Positions 15,297-22,123 of a stretch of 64,000 bases of DNA are shown here, piece after piece; position 1 is the stretch's first letter, and every line of letters starts with the position of its first letter. The stretch is from Prosopocoilus inquinatus (lineage: Eukaryota; Arthropoda; Insecta; Coleoptera; Lucanidae): assembly GCA_036172665.1 (NCBI GenBank), contig CM069877.1:20361001-20425000 (forward strand), read 5' to 3'. The notes beneath the pieces are model-generated. The model searched no databases. It had not been told where the DNA came from and saw only the letters and a list, made by a program, of their open reading frames with translations. Made by a program: the position numbers and the translations under genes.

Positions 15297-15634
15297 AATG
15301 TTGCCCAACACTGTTTCAAGTTTCCCATTTGAAATGGGAAACAAAGATTCTGCGATTTTTGTCCCCGAACACTAGAGATATATTACATTTTGTCTAGCAA
15401 ATGTTTCGAAACAATCGCGAAACAAGACTCTGAAACAAAGTTGCGCGATTTTGCATCCAAGTGTTTATTAGATTTCGATACAAATGTTCGGCGATTTTGT
15501 CGCAGAACACTTGAGATACACCACATTTTGTTTAGCAACTGTTTCGAAACAATCGCGAAACATGACTTTGGAACAAAGTTCCGCGACTTTGTATCCAAGT
15601 ATGTACTAGGCCTTAGTTGGGCAAACACCACAGA
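15297..15634. repeat. Small repeat element with an internal 139-bp duplication
   Basis: Bases 15370-15472 and 15509-15611 are direct copies, both carrying TTTCGAAACAATCGCGAAAC. The ends TGTTGCCCAAC and GTTGGGCAAACA form a short imperfect inverted repeat. A partial copy lies at 13289-13400. Open frames on both strands arise from the repeat and are not genes. Confidence 0.65.
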
Positions 15635-15851
15635 TATAAAAAAATATTAGTAATATTATATTGTTCTAGTTTTATAAACCATTTGGTTTATTTGAGGAAT
15701 AAACATACAAATTTAGCTTGTTCAGATAAATTTATGCACATTTACTTAGATAAAAAATTTATTTATAGCTCAATTAAAAATTTCCGTTTTTTTACACTGT
15801 GGTGGTACTGTTTACCATGCCATGCAATTATTTACACATTACACATTATAT

Positions 15852-15987
15852 TGTGGCGAGCCACTCAGCACTACGTCACATTGAAGGCATCACCTATTAC
15901 CACCGACTTCTGTCGGTTCATTATTATGCGTCATCGGCCGTCACGCCACCATCGAACAAACTCGAATTTTCCAGCGCTGGAAAATTC
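15852..15987 (+). repeat. Ty3/gypsy 5' LTR, truncated
   Basis: It aligns with the first part of the 3' LTR at 21795 (TGTGGCGAGCCACTCAGCAC) up to GGAAAATTC, then the sequence changes abruptly. Roughly the last 200 bp of the LTR, including its TATA box and start site, and the primer-binding site are missing. Confidence 0.92.
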
Positions 15988-16017
15988 TTAAATAAGTACA
16001 GTATCGGAAAAAAAACA

Positions 16018-17570
16018 ATGGCTGCGAGAAAAGTGTTGTTGAAAGACTTAAAAGTGGCCGAATTAAAAACCGAATTGGAAGAACGAGAGTTAGAAACCTG
16101 TGGTTTGAAAGGCGCACTTCAACAGCATCTCCGATGCGATTTGTTGACAGCTGGTGAAGATCCAGAGACGTTCCTTTTCGAAATTTCATGTGATCCCGTC
16201 GATTTTAATAAAATCTTGAAAAATGAACTTTGAGAACAATCCAGAAATTTAGAGGAAAAGCTTCTAGAACAATCTGGAAATTTCAAGGACGAACTTCGAG
16301 AACAATCCAGAAATTTGGACGAGAAGTTTCTAGAACAATCTGGAAATTTCAAGGACGAACTTCGAGAACAATCCAGAAATTTGGATGAGAAATTTCTAGA
16401 ACAATCTGGAAATTTCAAGGAGGAACTTCGAGAACAATCCAGAAATTTGGACGAGAAGTTTCAAGAACAGTATGGAAATTTAGAGAAGCTTCTAGAACAA
16501 TCTGAAAATTTCAAGGACGAATTTCGAGAACGATCTGTAAACTTCAAAGACGAGTTGAAAACTTAATTGGTGGAACAATCCAGAAATTTAGAGGAGAAGT
16601 TTCTAGAACAATCTGGAAATTTGGACAAATTATAGAATAAATTATTAAACAATCTAGAGACTTAGACGAGAAATTTCGAGAGCAATCCAGAAATTACGAC
16701 GAGAAATTTCTAGAACAAACAAAAGGACTCGAAGATAAATTAGTAGTAAAAATATCGGAAGAAACAAAGAACCTGCAAGAAAATGTGGAAGAAATAATAT
16801 TCCAGCAGGATAACAAAATCAAAAATCTGAAACAAATCATGGCGGGATTGCGAGTGTTCGGGGATCAGCCACCAGTAGAAACACTAGAAAATAATGAAAC
16901 CCGAATTGTGGAAGCACCAGCAGAAAACTCGAAATTGAAAATAAAACCACCAACGTTCGATGGAAAGTCTTCTTGGCCCAACTACTTCAAACTTCGTTAA
17001 TGGTGGATTTGAGAGGGGACGCCATCGATGTGCTACAGACGATGCCGCCAGAGGAACAAGAAGACTTCGACAAGCTGGTGAATAGGATGGAAATGCGTTA
17101 CGGACAGGCCCATCTGACCGAGGTATACCATGCGCAGTTGAGGAATCGCTGTCAGAAATCCGGAGAAAGTCTTCAGGAATTCGAAGCAGACGTTGCGCGT
17201 CTTGCCCAGTTGGCATATCCCACAGCTCCTGTTGAATTCCTCAAATGTTTGACGGTGCAGACCTTCATAGATGGAATCCGTGACCCAGACAACCAGCAGG
17301 CATTGAGAATGACCCATCCGAAGACGTCCAAGAACGCATTGGCTTATGCCTTGGAATTTGAAGCAGGCACTGAATCCGCTAACGCCAAGGTGGGATTTGC
17401 TATAAAGGAACGACCCAGGGAGTATGCCACCGCCGAGGATGTTCGCCGCATTGTGAAATAGGTCTTCAAGCAGAAGAAGCCGCTAGTGTGTTGGAATTGC
17501 CAGGAGGAAGGACATGTTCGCAGGCGATGTCCAAAGCCCAGACAGGATCCAAGGAAGCCACAGTTAAACT
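16018..17570 (+). pseudogene. Ty3/gypsy gag pseudogene with SAP-like N-terminus
   Basis: The ATG at 16018 opens a segment whose residues about 6-36 (DLKVAELKTELEERELE through LKGALQQHL) match the SAP helix-extension-helix DNA-binding motif. A TGA at 16231-16233 stops it, but the frame continues into repeated Glu/Lys/Asn-rich sequence (16232-16566), then further stops. A second gag part (16785-17000) ends in PPTFDGKSSWPNYFK. A deletion and frame change lead to the capsid-like part 16997-17458 (RGDAIDVLQTM ... FIDGIRDPDNQQAL). After a TAG at 17459 there is a zinc knuckle, CWNCQEEGHVRRRC (C-X2-C-X4-H-X4-C, 17489-17530), in the gag frame. Gag packages the element's RNA; the SAP-like part could bind chromatin (inference). 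Confidence 0.88.
16232..16780 (+). repeat. 66-bp minisatellite encoding paired 11-residue repeats
   Basis: Units begin with GAGAACAATCC at exactly 66-base spacing (16232, 16298, 16364, 16430), and degenerate units continue to about 16780. Each unit encodes two related 11-mers, EQSRNLDEKFL and EQSGNFKDELR. The pattern predicts a long charged helix or hendecad coiled coil in gag. Copy number is likely to vary between element copies. Confidence 0.9.
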
Positions 17571-18204
17571 AAGCCGGGTCGGTGCAGAGGGGCAAACGTC
17601 GACCCGTATTCAAAGGCCCCCAAAGACGAAAGCCAAACAAGTAATATCCCTACGGCAGTTAACCAGCAGTGTCTTCGTGGATGTTACCATTGATGACATT
17701 CCTCACACCATGTTGTTGGATACGGGTGCGACGAAAACCATCCTAAGACCCGACGTCATCAAGTCATCTGGACGGACCAAGCCGACCAAGTGGAGACTGA
17801 AAACTGCAACTGGAACATCAGCAACTGTCCACGGCGAAGTAGAGGTTATCATCACCATTGTTTCAACTCCAATAAAACACCGTGCACTGGTGGCAGACAT
17901 AGAGGATGAGGCAATTTTGGGCATGGACGTCATGTGTGCCCACAGGTTCCAATTGGACTTAAAGCGTGGCGTGATGGCGGTCAATAATGAGGAGTTGGTT
18001 CTACATCAACGAGGAGACGTGGCCGCTCGAGTAGTCCTCGCTGAAGACGTTGTATTACCCAGCAGGACTGAGGTTATCGTCGACGCAAAACTGGACGGTG
18101 TTTTTCAAGATGGGCAAGTCATTATGGTTGAACCTAATACTGATGATCAAAGGATTGGAAGAGGAGTCCTCGTTGGGAAAATGTTGTTAACGGCGAAGAA
18201 GTAG
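17488..18204 (+). pseudogene. Ty3/gypsy aspartic protease region
   Basis: The frame is shifted by -1 relative to the gag/zinc-knuckle frame it overlaps. That is consistent with programmed frameshifting in this superfamily, but could also be mutation. VFVDVTIDDIPHTMLLDTGA carries the catalytic DTG at 17719-17727, and a second conserved hydrophobic-Gly block (AILGMDVM) follows about 70 residues later. The frame ends at a TAG just before the RT region, which continues in another frame at 18224. Confidence 0.88.
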
Positions 18205-18223
18205 TAAAGTACCTGTCCGCCTG

Positions 18224-19552
18224 ATGAACGTCAATTGTTTCTCCGTCAATATCAAGAAGGAAACCATCTTGGGAAGCTGCACCATGGTGTCCTCCATCTC
18301 CCGCCAACTTGAAGCAAACGTGCCAGAAGCAAAAGTCCCAACGAAATTATGGGAAATGGTTATGTCAACAGCCCAGGAATTGACTCCAGACCAGAAGACA
18401 AAAGCAAAGAATCTGATCGGCCACTATCAAGATGTATTCGAGGTAGAAAATGGATCCAAGGGAAGAACTGATGTCGTGAAACACAAAATAGAGACTGGAG
18501 AAGAAAGACCTATCCGTCAAGCTCCAAGGCGATTACCGTTAGCGAAGCGTGAGGAAGCGGAACGCATTATTCGTGAGATGGAAAAGGATAATGTAATAGA
18601 ACCATCAAGCAGTCCGTGGTCGTTACCAGTAGTGCTTGTGAAAAAGAAGGATGGGTCCACCAGGTTCTGTGTAGACTACCGGTTACTCAACAATGTCACC
18701 AAGAAGGACAGCTATCCCCTGCCACGGATTGATGATACCCTGGACATCCTGGCCGGCTCAAAAATCTTCTCAACTTTGGAATTAAAAAGTTGATATTGGC
18801 AAGTGGAACTGGCGCCTGAAGATCGAGAAAAGACGGCGTTTTCCATTGGTATGGGTCTGTGGTAATTCACAGTGATGCCATTCGGGTTATGTAATGCTCC
18901 AGCGACATTCGAGAGGTTAATGGAGACGGTTCTGAAAGGTCTGTCCTGGACAATGTGCATGGTGTACCTTGACGACATAATTGTCGTGGAAGAAACGTTC
19001 GACGACCACCTGAGGAACCTGGAAGGAGTGTTCCAGCGGCTTCGCGGAGCTGGACTAAAGCGTAGCCTCAAGAAGTGCCACCTGTTCCAGAAGGAAGTGA
19101 ATTACCTGGAGCACATTGTTAATGGAAATGGAATCGCCGTGAACCCAGTGAAGATTCAGGTGGTGAAAGACTGGCCAACTCCCAGAAATAAACACCAAAT
19201 AAGGAGTTTTCTTGGCCTGTGCACTTACTATCGGCGCTACGTTCCTGGATTTGCAGACATTGCTAAGCCGTTGACAAAACTAACTGAAGAAGGTCGTCCA
19301 TTTGAATGGGACCAACAGTGTCAAATTGGTTTTGAACAACTAAAGCAGTACTTGATTAGTGCTCCTATTCTGAGTTATCCTCTCCCGGAAGGCAAGTTCG
19401 TGGTGGACACAAATGCTAGCAACGTTGGGATTGGTGGCGTACTTTCCCAGATACAAGAGGGGCAAGAGAAGGTGATCGGCTACTTCAGTAAAGGCCTATC
19501 AAAGCCGGAACGAAACTATTGCGTCACAAGAAGGGAATTGCTAGCCGCGTAA
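18224..19552 (+). pseudogene. Ty3/gypsy reverse transcriptase and RNase H start
   Basis: RT fingers and palm are clear: [20 protein letters not shown], then [17 protein letters not shown], then MPFGLCNAPATFERLM, with the intact YLDD box at 18965-18976. Two in-frame stops occur near 18792 (after LELKS) and 18862 (after GMGLW). The first catalytic Asp of the usual LDLKSGY block reads Glu here. The RNase H motif begins DTNASNVGIGG, where the family normally has Asp instead of Asn in the TDAS position. The frame ends at a TAA at about 19550. Both changed active-site residues and the stops show a dead enzyme. Confidence 0.92.
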
Positions 19553-21185
19553 AAACGATAGAATATTTCTACAAGTACTTGTATGCTAGACGCTTCCTCC
19601 TGAGGACCGACCATGCCGCTCTAAAATGGCTTCTCCGTTTGAAGAACCCAGAAAGGCAAGTTGCACGATGGATCGAACCACTTCAGGAGTACGATTTTGA
19701 AATTGAGGGCAGGAACTAGCCATCGAAATGCCGATGCTTTGTCGAGAAGACCCTGTGCCGAAGACTGTAAGCACTGTAGTCGTTTGGACGAGAAAGTAGC
19801 CACGACTGCGAGGACAGCCATAGTTGACGACAAATGGCAAGACGAAGAACTGCGAAGAGACCAGGAGAACGACCCGGATTTGAAATTAGTGCTAGAGTGG
19901 AAAAACAGAGACACGAGGCCTACCTGGGAAGAGGTAGCACCATGTGCACCGTCCGTAAAATCATACTGGGCGCAGTGGGACTCCATAGTGTTGGATCGTG
20001 GTCTTCTGAGACGAAGCATAGAGAATCAGGAAGGCATGGAACAGAAGACACAGTTACTAATCCCCAAGAATAGGGTGCCAGAAGTTCTGAGGGAACTTCA
20101 CGATGGAACTTCGGGAGGGCATCTGGGAGTTAAAAAGACTATGGAGGAGGTGCGCGAAAGATTTTACTGGGTGAACTGCAAGGAAGACGTGAAGGATTGG
20201 TGCAGAAACTGTGCAGTCTGCGCAGCCAGCAACGGTCCCCATAGGCGGGGCAAGGTCCCCATGAGACAGTACAACGTTGGAAGTCCTTTTGAGAGAGTTG
20301 CCATCGATGTAGCCGCCCCGTTTCCAGAAACGAATGGTGGAAACAAGTACATCGTCGTGGTAATGGACTACTTTAGCAAGTGGGTTGAAGCTTACGCCCT
20401 ACCAAACCAAGAGGCAGTCACTATTGCTGAAGTCCTCGTCATTGAATGGATTAGTCGGTATGGCGCACCTATAGAACTGCATTCAGACCAAGGAAGGAAC
20501 TTTGAATCGGCCTTGTTCAAGAACGTGTGTTCTCTGCTCGGCGTACGAAAAACTAGAACAACTGCACTCCACCCACAGTCGGACGGAATGGTGGAAAGTT
20601 TCAATAGAACCATCAACCGACATTTGTCCAAGGTCGTTTCCGATCATCAGAGGGACTGGGACACGTACATTTCCCTGTTTCTAATGGCATACCGCTCGTC
20701 CGTTCATGAGACAACAGGGGAGACTCCAGCGAAAGTGGTATTCGGGCGAGAGTTTGAAGTTTGGTGTGAAGCCTGGCGAAGTCTCTGCCGACGAAGATTA
20801 CGTGAGCAAATTACGCAGGAAAATGGACGACATCCACAACCAAGTGCGTCACAATATACAGACGGCCAGCGATCGGATCAAGGAACACTATGAAATCAAC
20901 GCTCAACACGGAGAATACCAACCTGGAGCACTGGTCTGGCTTTATAACCCCCAAAGACGTCGAGGCCTCTCCCCAAAACTTCAGACCTCTTGGGAAGGTC
21001 CTTACAAGGTGATGAAACGGATCAACGACGTCGTTTACCGCATCAAGAAGGTCCCCCATGGCAAACCCAAAGTAATCCAGTTCAACCGGATAGCCCCTTA
21101 CCATGGAGAAGCAGATGAAGGGACAGTAAAAAGAGGGCAAGTTTCCGCAAGTGAACTTCGAAACCTTCATGTCTCATCACGCTGA
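19550..21185 (+). pseudogene. Ty3/gypsy RNase H end and integrase
   Basis: A frame change near 19549 leads to the RNase H tail (RTDHAALKWLLRLKNPERQ), and another near 19720 leads to HRNADALSRRPC. The integrase has an HHCC finger (ELHDGTSGGHLG ... WCRNCAVCAAS). Its catalytic triad is Asp 20306-20308 (VAIDVAAPF), Asp 20486-20488 (LHSDQGRNF) and Glu 20594-20596 (SDGMVESFN), with D-35-E spacing. A frameshift near 20745 moves the reading to the C-terminal part, which ends with WEGPYKVMKRINDVVYRI, a GPY/F-like module. It stops at 21183-21185. Its end overlaps the ATG of the accessory frame by 17 bases. Confidence 0.93.
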
Positions 21186-21894
21186 AGGAAGTAAGGCACG
21201 GTTTGGAGTGACCACGGAGAAGCAACAAGATCTCTTTAAAGTGCCACTGGAGTACAGTCTGGCCCACTGCGTAGCAGAAGACCTGAAAATGTCCAAAGGA
21301 ATTGCTCAGGTGTTTAGGAAGAAATTTGGTCAAATCGAGGAGCTCCGAAGACAACATCCCGTGGTAGGCAGGAGCTTGCAGATCATTGATTCGACGGCAG
21401 ATCGGAGGCGCCACGTGCATTATTTGGTCACTAAGAAGACATCAAGCGGTAAACCTGACTATCAAAGTATGTGGAGAGCCCTATATAGCCTGAGGAGACA
21501 GCTAATAGACAACCACCAGATGAAGTTAGCCATCCCCAAATTGGGCTGCGGATTGGACGGACTAGACTGGAGAGTAATTCGAAGCATGCTGGAAGTCATC
21601 TTCCACAGAACGGGAATTGAAGTCCTAGTCTGCAGCCACCACCCACAGGCAACAGTCAGCAACAGCAAAACCGTAGACTGCTACTTCTTCCAGACGGGAA
21701 GTTGCAAGAATGGGCCAGCTTGTAGATTCCGACATCCTCCTTCAAGACTATCACTAGGAACATTTCCAGACGAAACGTTTTTAAGAAGGGGCAGTGTGGC
21801 GAGCCACTCAGCACTACGTCACACTGAAGGCGTCAAGAAGTCGGTTCATTATTATGCGTCATCGGCCGTCACGCCACCATCGAACAAACTCTAA
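21169..21894 (+). CDS. Accessory 3' frame of the gypsy element: OARD1/TARG1-like macrodomain plus CCCH zinc finger
   Basis: The first ATG (21169) gives 241 residues with no interruption, overlapping the end of the integrase frame by 17 bases. Residues about 20-157 resemble the OARD1/TARG1 class of macrodomains, which bind ADP-ribose and remove it from acidic residues. Visible landmarks are DLFKVPLEYSLAHCVAEDLK, a GIAQVFRKKFG helix, YLVTKK (Lys89/90) and PKLGCGLDGLDW (Asp130). In the human enzyme a Lys and an Asp in the equivalent blocks are catalytic (established knowledge; equivalence inferred). Residues 171-189 form a C-X7-C-X5-C-X3-H finger. The last 33 residues are encoded inside the 3' LTR. 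No stop or frameshift occurs, unlike gag-pol. A role in countering ADP-ribosylation or binding RNA is inference. Confidence 0.85.
   Translation: MSHHAEGSKARFGVTTEKQQDLFKVPLEYSLAHCVAEDLKMSKGIAQVFRKKFGQIEELRRQHPVVGRSLQIIDSTADRRRHVHYLVTKKTSSGKPDYQSMWRALYSLRRQLIDNHQMKLAIPKLGCGLDGLDWRVIRSMLEVIFHRTGIEVLVCSHHPQATVSNSKTVDCYFFQTGSCKNGPACRFRHPPSRLSLGTFPDETFLRRGSVASHSALRHTEGVKKSVHYYASSAVTPPSNKL
21781..21794 (+). promoter_or_regulatory. Polypurine tract of the Ty3/gypsy element
   Basis: The purine-rich string AAGAAGGGGCAG lies immediately before the TG of the 3' LTR, the usual place for plus-strand priming. It is also coding sequence of the accessory frame. Confidence 0.8.
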
Positions 21895-22119
21895 TTTTCC
21901 AGCGTTGGAAAATTCGAGACGGCAGCAAAGGATATAAAATCGGCCGGAGTTGACTCAGGAGTCAGTCGAATTCTAACAGCGATCGTCGAAGTTAGATTTT
22001 AGTGTGTAAATAAATTGTTACAAATAAATTAGTTTGTAAGCATTATTAAATTACGGTTAAGTTTTTACCGAGTGTTTTATTCGTTTAAATAAATAAATTT
22101 AAACCCTAGAAACGTAACA
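21795..22119 (+). repeat. Ty3/gypsy 3' LTR, complete (325 bp)
   Basis: It starts TGTGGCGAG and ends AAACGTAACA, followed by the ATAT target copy. It contains the stop of the accessory frame at 21892-21894, a core promoter and several AATAAA-like polyadenylation strings after 22000. Confidence 0.93.
21933..21967 (+). promoter_or_regulatory. LTR core promoter: TATA box and initiator
   Basis: TATAAAA at 21933-21939 is followed at the standard distance by an arthropod-type initiator TCAGTC (21962-21967). The A of the initiator is about 31 bases after the start of the TATA box. The matching part of the 5' LTR is deleted, so this copy could only promote outward transcription to the right. Confidence 0.7.
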
Positions 22120-22123
22120 ATAT

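Follow-up and report, generated by a model that had tools for sequence, protein, structure and literature searches.

The stretch analyzed here, a window of 64,000 nucleotides from Prosopocoilus inquinatus (GCA_036172665.1, contig CM069877.1, positions 20,361,001 to 20,425,000), contains a single Ty3/gypsy retrotransposon copy, which is damaged and spans 15852-22119 (+). The polyprotein Pol of this element ends in a C-terminal module, placed right after the integrase C-terminal domain, that consists of a TARG1/OARD1-type macrodomain and a CCCH zinc finger (21169-21894, +). The Ty3/gypsy element with its captured enzyme domain is real, widespread and conserved. An earlier sequence-only reading of the window had identified the domains correctly but took the end of a broken Pol for a separate open reading frame (ORF).

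The ORF at 21169-21894 (+) encodes 241 amino acids without an internal stop. Its frame is open over 21130-21894, with a stop codon (TAA) upstream at 21127 and the first ATG at 21169; it overlaps the frame of the integrase C-terminal domain, which ends at 21185, by 17 bases, crosses the polypurine tract and continues 100 bases into the 3' long terminal repeat (LTR). The uninterrupted frame, the overlap and the end inside the LTR, all claimed previously, were thus confirmed by ORF and LTR mapping. The encoded protein (P0001) matches solved human OARD1/C6orf130 with a phmmer E value of 5.3e-29, and its predicted fold is a macrodomain that is closest to TARG1 in fold comparison. The Pfam profile Macro (PF01661) gives 18.2 bits, just below the curated cut-off of 22, but P0001 is counted as a macrodomain because it matches TARG1 by both sequence and fold. 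The macrodomain covers about residues 12-157, within which Lys89 and Asp130 align with the catalytic Lys84 and Asp125 of TARG1 (2eee alignment, chain numbering being 3 lower), the Lys/Asp dyad described for that enzyme (PMC9411070). The finger, C171-X7-C179-X5-C185-X3-H189 (21679-21735, +), scores 29.4 bits against Pfam zf-CCCH (PF00642), for which the cut-off is 20.5. The macrodomain and finger matches are far beyond chance. Hence the macrodomain and the finger that the sequence-only reading had named both hold, the first by sequence match, predicted fold and the retained Lys and Asp, although in the profile search it had proposed only zf-CCCH, and not Macro, exceeded its cut-off.

The connection of this frame to Pol was assessed in relatives from other species and in sister copies. 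A protein search with P0001 gave 201 matches, the best 120 of which were listed; the nearest 32 (P0002-P0033), together with P0122-P0127 from a second search, make up 38 element-type relatives. In the alignment, which does not include Harmonia, P0002-P0033 are 33-57% identical to P0001. The named source genera are Aromia, Molorchus, Exocentrus, Callosobruchus, Gonioctena, Leptinotarsa, Diabrotica, Pyrocoelia, Holotrichia and Harmonia, all of them beetles. In 20 of the 38 relatives, the integrase C-terminal domain (PF22938) lies within the same protein. When such relatives are aligned to the window, the integrase C-terminus is found in one frame and the macrodomain continues in another; since the relatives switch window frame there, the common frame was lost near the junction in the window copy. 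The Harmonia protein P0123 presents the integrase core, the C-terminal domain, the macrodomain and the finger successively in one chain, and its structural model is good over parts of the last three, with a predicted local distance difference test score (pLDDT) mostly below 50 in the integrase core.

Sister copies were obtained by scanning the window genome (650 Mb), where a first look gave 2399 candidates, of which 150 were scored and the 30 best inspected. All 150 scored candidates match. Among the 30 best, the window copy included, 25 carry the integrase C-terminal motif and the macrodomain in the same open frame, the frame being broken in the window copy and 4 others, and 26 of these score-selected copies are open from the ATG for 230 residues or more. 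Open frames reach at least 350 amino acids in 129 of the 150 copies, at least 1000 in 42 and at least 1900 in 7; the last threshold is close to the 1959 codons that separate the gag ATG from the frame end in window coordinates. Because the frame is continuous with Pol in most sister copies and many relatives, the 17-base overlap is a trait of the damaged window copy. A self-standing third ORF is rejected by this continuity (25 of 30 copies, 20 of 38 relatives), and a private insertion by the relatives in other species and the many copies in the window genome. None of the outcomes that the sequence-only reading had set against itself in advance (no macrodomain match or fold, a private insertion, universal loss of the Lys and Asp) was found.

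Several further observations concern the distribution of the domain. Thirteen window-type copies (L142-L154) lie near one another in the window genome, with open frames of 1482 to 1970 amino acids. In Callosobruchus maculatus, the gene models P0124-P0127 fuse pieces of a window-type macrodomain to other domains, perhaps through prediction across insertions or through exon capture. A pattern search of genome contigs gave 28 matches with no relative among them. Viral contigs gave 221 pattern matches and 149 relatives; within the best 80 of these (L001-L080), L001-L042 have TARG1-like macrodomains with 29-44% identity to P0001.

Conservation was measured in an alignment of 39 rows, P0001 included. 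The catalytic Lys is kept in 36 rows, two others having Arg, and the Asp in 34, with Gly, Glu and Asn once each and a deletion in P0019; P0127 reaches neither position. At least one protein carries the intact pair in 8 of the 10 named species, the exceptions being Diabrotica and Holotrichia, represented by one protein each. The finger pattern (C-X7/8-C-X5-C-X3-H) is present in 23 of the 39 rows, many of the remaining rows being fragments, and in 7 of the 10 named species, with Diabrotica, Holotrichia and Pyrocoelia lacking it.

The element has been recently active, with recent insertions. LTR pairs were tried in 12 copies, which yielded seven near full-length pairs, one partial pair (L092) and one mixed pair (L101); for the other three, no LTR match was found within the fetched stretch. 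The seven near full-length pairs differ at 1 to 9 positions per 326-362 aligned bases (97.3-99.7% identity), the partial pair of L092 matches at 253 of 254 bases, and L086, L105, L108 and L097 are flanked by ATAT at either end. Selection was estimated as the ratio of nonsynonymous to synonymous change (dN/dS) in 34 of 55 loci (29 distinct), kept for an unbroken frame, equal length and a polypurine tail; the 55 candidates include 8 loci of other families and 1 mixed locus. For macrodomain and finger together, dN/dS is 0.295 (codon bootstrap 0.157-0.491), and for the macrodomain alone it is 0.403 (0.203-0.734), all dN/dS values given here being biased downward because selection by protein score and open frames lowers dN. 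The spacer, finger and tail, a segment that includes the polypurine tract, give 0.139 (0.035-0.458), and the integrase C-terminus with linker gives 0.218 (0.103-0.526). In an earlier set of 18 of the 30 copies the macrodomain value was 0.246 (0.106-0.526), and the window copy compared with 25 others gives 0.09-0.29. The expectation that the module is shared with other copies and with elements of other insects, at dN/dS below 1, was therefore borne out, albeit in a biased sample.

The macrodomain is also carried by other retroelement families. Photinus OARD1, used as query against the window genome, matched 114 times, and 26 loci (L129-L154) were inspected: 1 host OARD1 gene, 16 window-type loci (all with integrase in frame), 2 of a family B, 1 of a family C, 5 of a family D, and L136, whose best match is a window-type fragment. 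Altogether, the loci assigned to these families in the window genome are L130, L131 and L159 for B, L135, L156 and L160 for C, and L137-L141, L155 and L161 for D. In families C and D (one copy of each scanned), the macrodomain lies in one frame between the aspartyl protease and the reverse transcriptase; four of the five inspected family D loci have open frames of 1916 amino acids. In family B it follows the protease and is preceded by a gag with CCHC knuckles, and downstream of it the two longest frames (L157) showed no reverse transcriptase. A further arrangement is seen in P0082 and P0129, in which, according to Pfam, a retroviral aspartyl protease follows the macrodomain; by alignment, P0057 and P0128 are related to P0082. 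The macrodomain thus occupies three places in Gag-Pol: after the integrase, between protease and reverse transcriptase, and before the protease. Identity among the window-type, C and D reverse transcriptases is 45-50%, which makes these three deeply separate lineages. The Lys and Asp are kept in those B, C and D macrodomains that were listed with the second tree described below. The longhorn beetle Rhamnusium bicolor has several versions of OARD1-like proteins (P0038, P0045, P0053), which may belong to another macrodomain-bearing element.

The origin of the domain was examined in two macrodomain trees. For the first, 148 proteins were taken, 15 with short macrodomain parts set aside, 3 restored and 22 near-copies collapsed, which left 114 rows; the second has 122 rows. 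The window type forms one clade in both (support 97 and 94), and the backbone is weak, inner branches being drawn open at 58 of 111 and 54 of 118 positions, respectively. An intron interrupts the domain in the host OARD1 gene (L129, C5:3752646-3753242), whose two pieces are 59 and 60% identical to Photinus OARD1 (66% in the tree alignment). In the second tree this gene clusters with Photinus and other insect OARD1 proteins, outside the clade of the elements. An origin of the element domain as a recent duplicate of the host gene is rejected on account of that intron and of that grouping. The phylogeny with host OARD1 that the sequence-only reading had suggested therefore separates the host gene from the element, although a joint clade of the element type and insect OARD1 is not rejected (p 0.346), so that the domain may descend from insect OARD1 at an earlier date. 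Two Rhamnusium bicolor proteins are sister to the window-type clade in the first tree (support 90) but not in the second, and a joint clade of these proteins with the window type is not rejected (p 0.684). Either tree joins P0082, P0057 and P0128 to P0077 (support 97 and 82).

The number of captures was addressed with approximately unbiased (AU) tests on 53 of the 122 rows; the rows omitted include six of the window type, one each of families B and D, and many more. The tests reject a single clade of all retroelement macrodomains (p 1.5e-5) and a clade of the window type with the before-protease group (p 0.0123), p values that are weakened because the grouping was made with the first tree already in view and only 53 rows were used. 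Since the rejected clades include the before-protease group, at least two captures of a TARG1-type macrodomain by LTR retroelements are supported, as judged from these alignments. The alternative is a single ancient capture, after which the domain would have moved within elements. It draws on the weak backbone and on the clade of window type, B, C and D, which is not rejected (p 0.547), but it is rejected once the before-protease proteins are added. The domain stands at three different Gag-Pol places, and the before-protease group fell near proteins named from bdelloid rotifers in the first tree (80), though not in the second; we regard a single capture as improbable.

The rest of the window copy agrees with the assignment to Ty3/gypsy that had been made from the sequence. 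Seven pieces were scanned with Pfam, and the order protease, reverse transcriptase, RNase H, integrase is that of Ty3/gypsy; two LTRs (TG...CA), a target-site duplication and a polypurine tract are present. The 4-base duplication ATAT is identical on the left (15848-15851) and right (22120-22123), and all internal features lie on the plus strand. The 5' LTR is a truncated remnant (15852-15987) beginning TGTGGCG, which matches the 3' LTR at 39 of 41 and 74 of 76 positions; its 3' part and the expected primer-binding-site region are gone. In sister copies a putative primer-binding site, TGGTGTC, lies one base past the LTR and was not matched to a tRNA. Gag starts with a SAP domain (16018-16233; Pfam SAP 26.7 bits, cut-off 23.9), followed by 33-base repeats found by self-comparison (about 16183-16760) and an ORF assigned by position to the capsid part (16973-17461), for which no Pfam family matched. 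The aspartyl protease (17488-18204; gag-asp_proteas 38.7 bits, Asp_protease_2 37.7) and the gag CCHC knuckle C-X2-C-X4-H-X4-C (17489-17530) come next. The N-terminal part of the reverse transcriptase (18224-18793) has a broken frame and, scanned alone, had no Pfam match; it is assigned from its ORF and from the sister copies L162 and L163, in which this stretch shares one frame with the remaining reverse transcriptase. The latter, with the YLDD motif and an RNase H part, lies at 18872-19552 (RVT_1 59.1 bits, RT_RNaseH_2 86.6), the integrase zinc-binding domain and catalytic core at 19661-20893 (Integrase_H2C2 73.6, rve 47.5), and the integrase C-terminal domain, in a frame different from that of the core, at 20706-21185 (Integrase_p58_C 38.5). 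Frames are thus interrupted several times across pol. The polypurine tract (21783-21794), whose codons encode an LRRG motif, abuts the 3' LTR (TGTGGCG ... GTAACA, 21795-22119), which is delimited by the match to the 5' remnant, the flanking ATAT and the ends of sister copies. Just upstream of the element, at 15357-15609, two copies of a 115-base repeat are 85% alike, with starts 138 bases apart.

We lean towards the economical reading that the module is a packaged ADP-ribosyl-hydrolase, held on nucleic acid by its finger, which erases host-placed ADP-ribose from the element. As part of Gag-Pol, it would enter the particle with the element RNA and later accompany the complementary DNA (cDNA). 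The macrodomain would be an active hydrolase, since its two catalytic residues are mostly kept; the finger would keep it on nucleic acid, and it would strip ADP-ribose added by host transferases from element proteins or from RNA or cDNA ends and bases. ADP-ribose left in place would mark or block element parts before or during integration, and linear cDNA with free ends would offer targets for it. TARG1 is described as stripping ADP-ribose from Glu/Asp, from DNA and RNA phosphate ends and from DNA thymidine; as for the enzymes that add it, human PARP1-3 do so at DNA ends in vitro, TRPT1 at the 5' phosphates of DNA and RNA, and PARP10, 11 and 15 at those of RNA (PMC9411070). A nucleic-acid substrate would agree with the presence of a CCCH finger. 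Human L1 is restricted by ZAP/PARP13, which is likewise a CCCH protein (PMC4441479), although insects and the window element may differ from that case. Like the sequence-only reading, we infer a possible role against a host PARP response. Several points weigh against this reading. Packaging, binding, activity and expression of the domain are all predicted, and the adversary is a putative insect transferase. P0016 and P0028 are without both catalytic residues, P0033 is without the Asp and P0019 is deleted there; such relatives may be dead copies or readers. P0023 (Pyrocoelia) and P0029 extend beyond the finger site yet have no finger. The dN/dS of the macrodomain alone (0.403) exceeds that of the integrase part, the polypurine tract, a DNA element, by itself lowers change in the tail, and the copies were chosen for an unbroken frame and for protein similarity to P0001 or P0034.

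The main rival, because the place behind the integrase recalls the chromodomain, is an integration tether, in which the macrodomain would read ADP-ribose on host chromatin (for example at DNA breaks) and steer the integrase while the finger helps to hold DNA or RNA; such steering is also proposed for the chromodomain of chromoviruses. The domain does adjoin the integrase C-terminal domain, where chromoviruses carry their chromodomain (PMC3605345), and P0123 joins it to the integrase core in one protein. However, binding alone would not need the catalytic residues that are so largely kept (Lys 36/39, Asp 34/39), and because families C and D place the domain between protease and reverse transcriptase, far from the integrase, a packaged enzyme is preferred and a tether appears unlikely. 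The domain might instead do housekeeping on the element's own parts, by regulating Gag or integrase or by clearing ADP-ribose metabolites, without any host defense; being within the polyprotein, it would meet Gag and integrase first. The seven scanned pieces of the window element showed no transferase domain, so the tag would need a host source, and recruitment in deeply different families seems to fit outside pressure better, which makes housekeeping rather unlikely in our view. The broken window copy, with its split pol frames and truncated 5' LTR, could suggest that the domain is a passenger, part of a host gene carried along without benefit to the element. This is highly improbable given the 26 of 30 score-selected copies that stay open over at least 230 residues, a dN/dS whose upper bound is 0.491 even if the sample is biased, and a pair and finger kept in 8 and 7 of 10 named species at 33-57% identity.

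The packaged hydrolase that we favor has partial counterparts in known systems. Solved human TARG1/OARD1 (C6orf130) chains of 146-160 residues consist of the domain alone, whereas the window domain is the tail of a retrotransposon Pol, has a CCCH finger and lacks the intron. Chromoviruses likewise have an extra domain directly behind the integrase C-terminal domain; here that extra domain is a macrodomain with a CCCH finger, and no chromodomain matched in Pfam scans of the window-element pieces and the scanned relative proteins. dUTPase is a packaged enzyme in some retroviruses. Retroviruses and retroelements that bear it likewise hold a host-type enzyme inside the polyprotein, and families C and D resemble dUTPase-bearing elements in placing the enzyme between protease and reverse transcriptase; judging by homology, however, the window domain would remove ADP-ribose and not dUTP. 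Viral macrodomains are known from RNA viruses. Those of alphaviruses, coronaviruses and rubella virus belong to such viruses, in contrast to the TARG1-like domain of an LTR retroelement described here. Bdelloid rotifer LTR retrotransposons have likewise acquired enzyme genes, their extra ORFs being described as of GDSL and DEDDy types (PMC5408684); the words macro, CCCH and ADP-rib are absent from the main text of that paper. Our literature search, with subscription papers, preprints and Repbase outside its scope, found no TARG1-type hydrolase in an LTR retroelement polyprotein.

At least two uptakes of a TARG1-type domain, at three Gag-Pol places, could tentatively be explained if hosts ADP-ribosylate retroelement particles, RNA or cDNA ends and the elements carry the eraser in the particle. 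As a defined domain, the module has a putative activity that can be assayed, and its numerous natural copies allow comparison. That deeply separate Ty3/gypsy families carry the domain, and mostly retain its catalytic pair, suggests a benefit of ADP-ribose removal to such elements, and in turn a part for ADP-ribosylation in the contest between host and retroelement. If this is true, an insect ADP-ribosylation defense against retroelements, and the enzyme that counters it, would be revealed.
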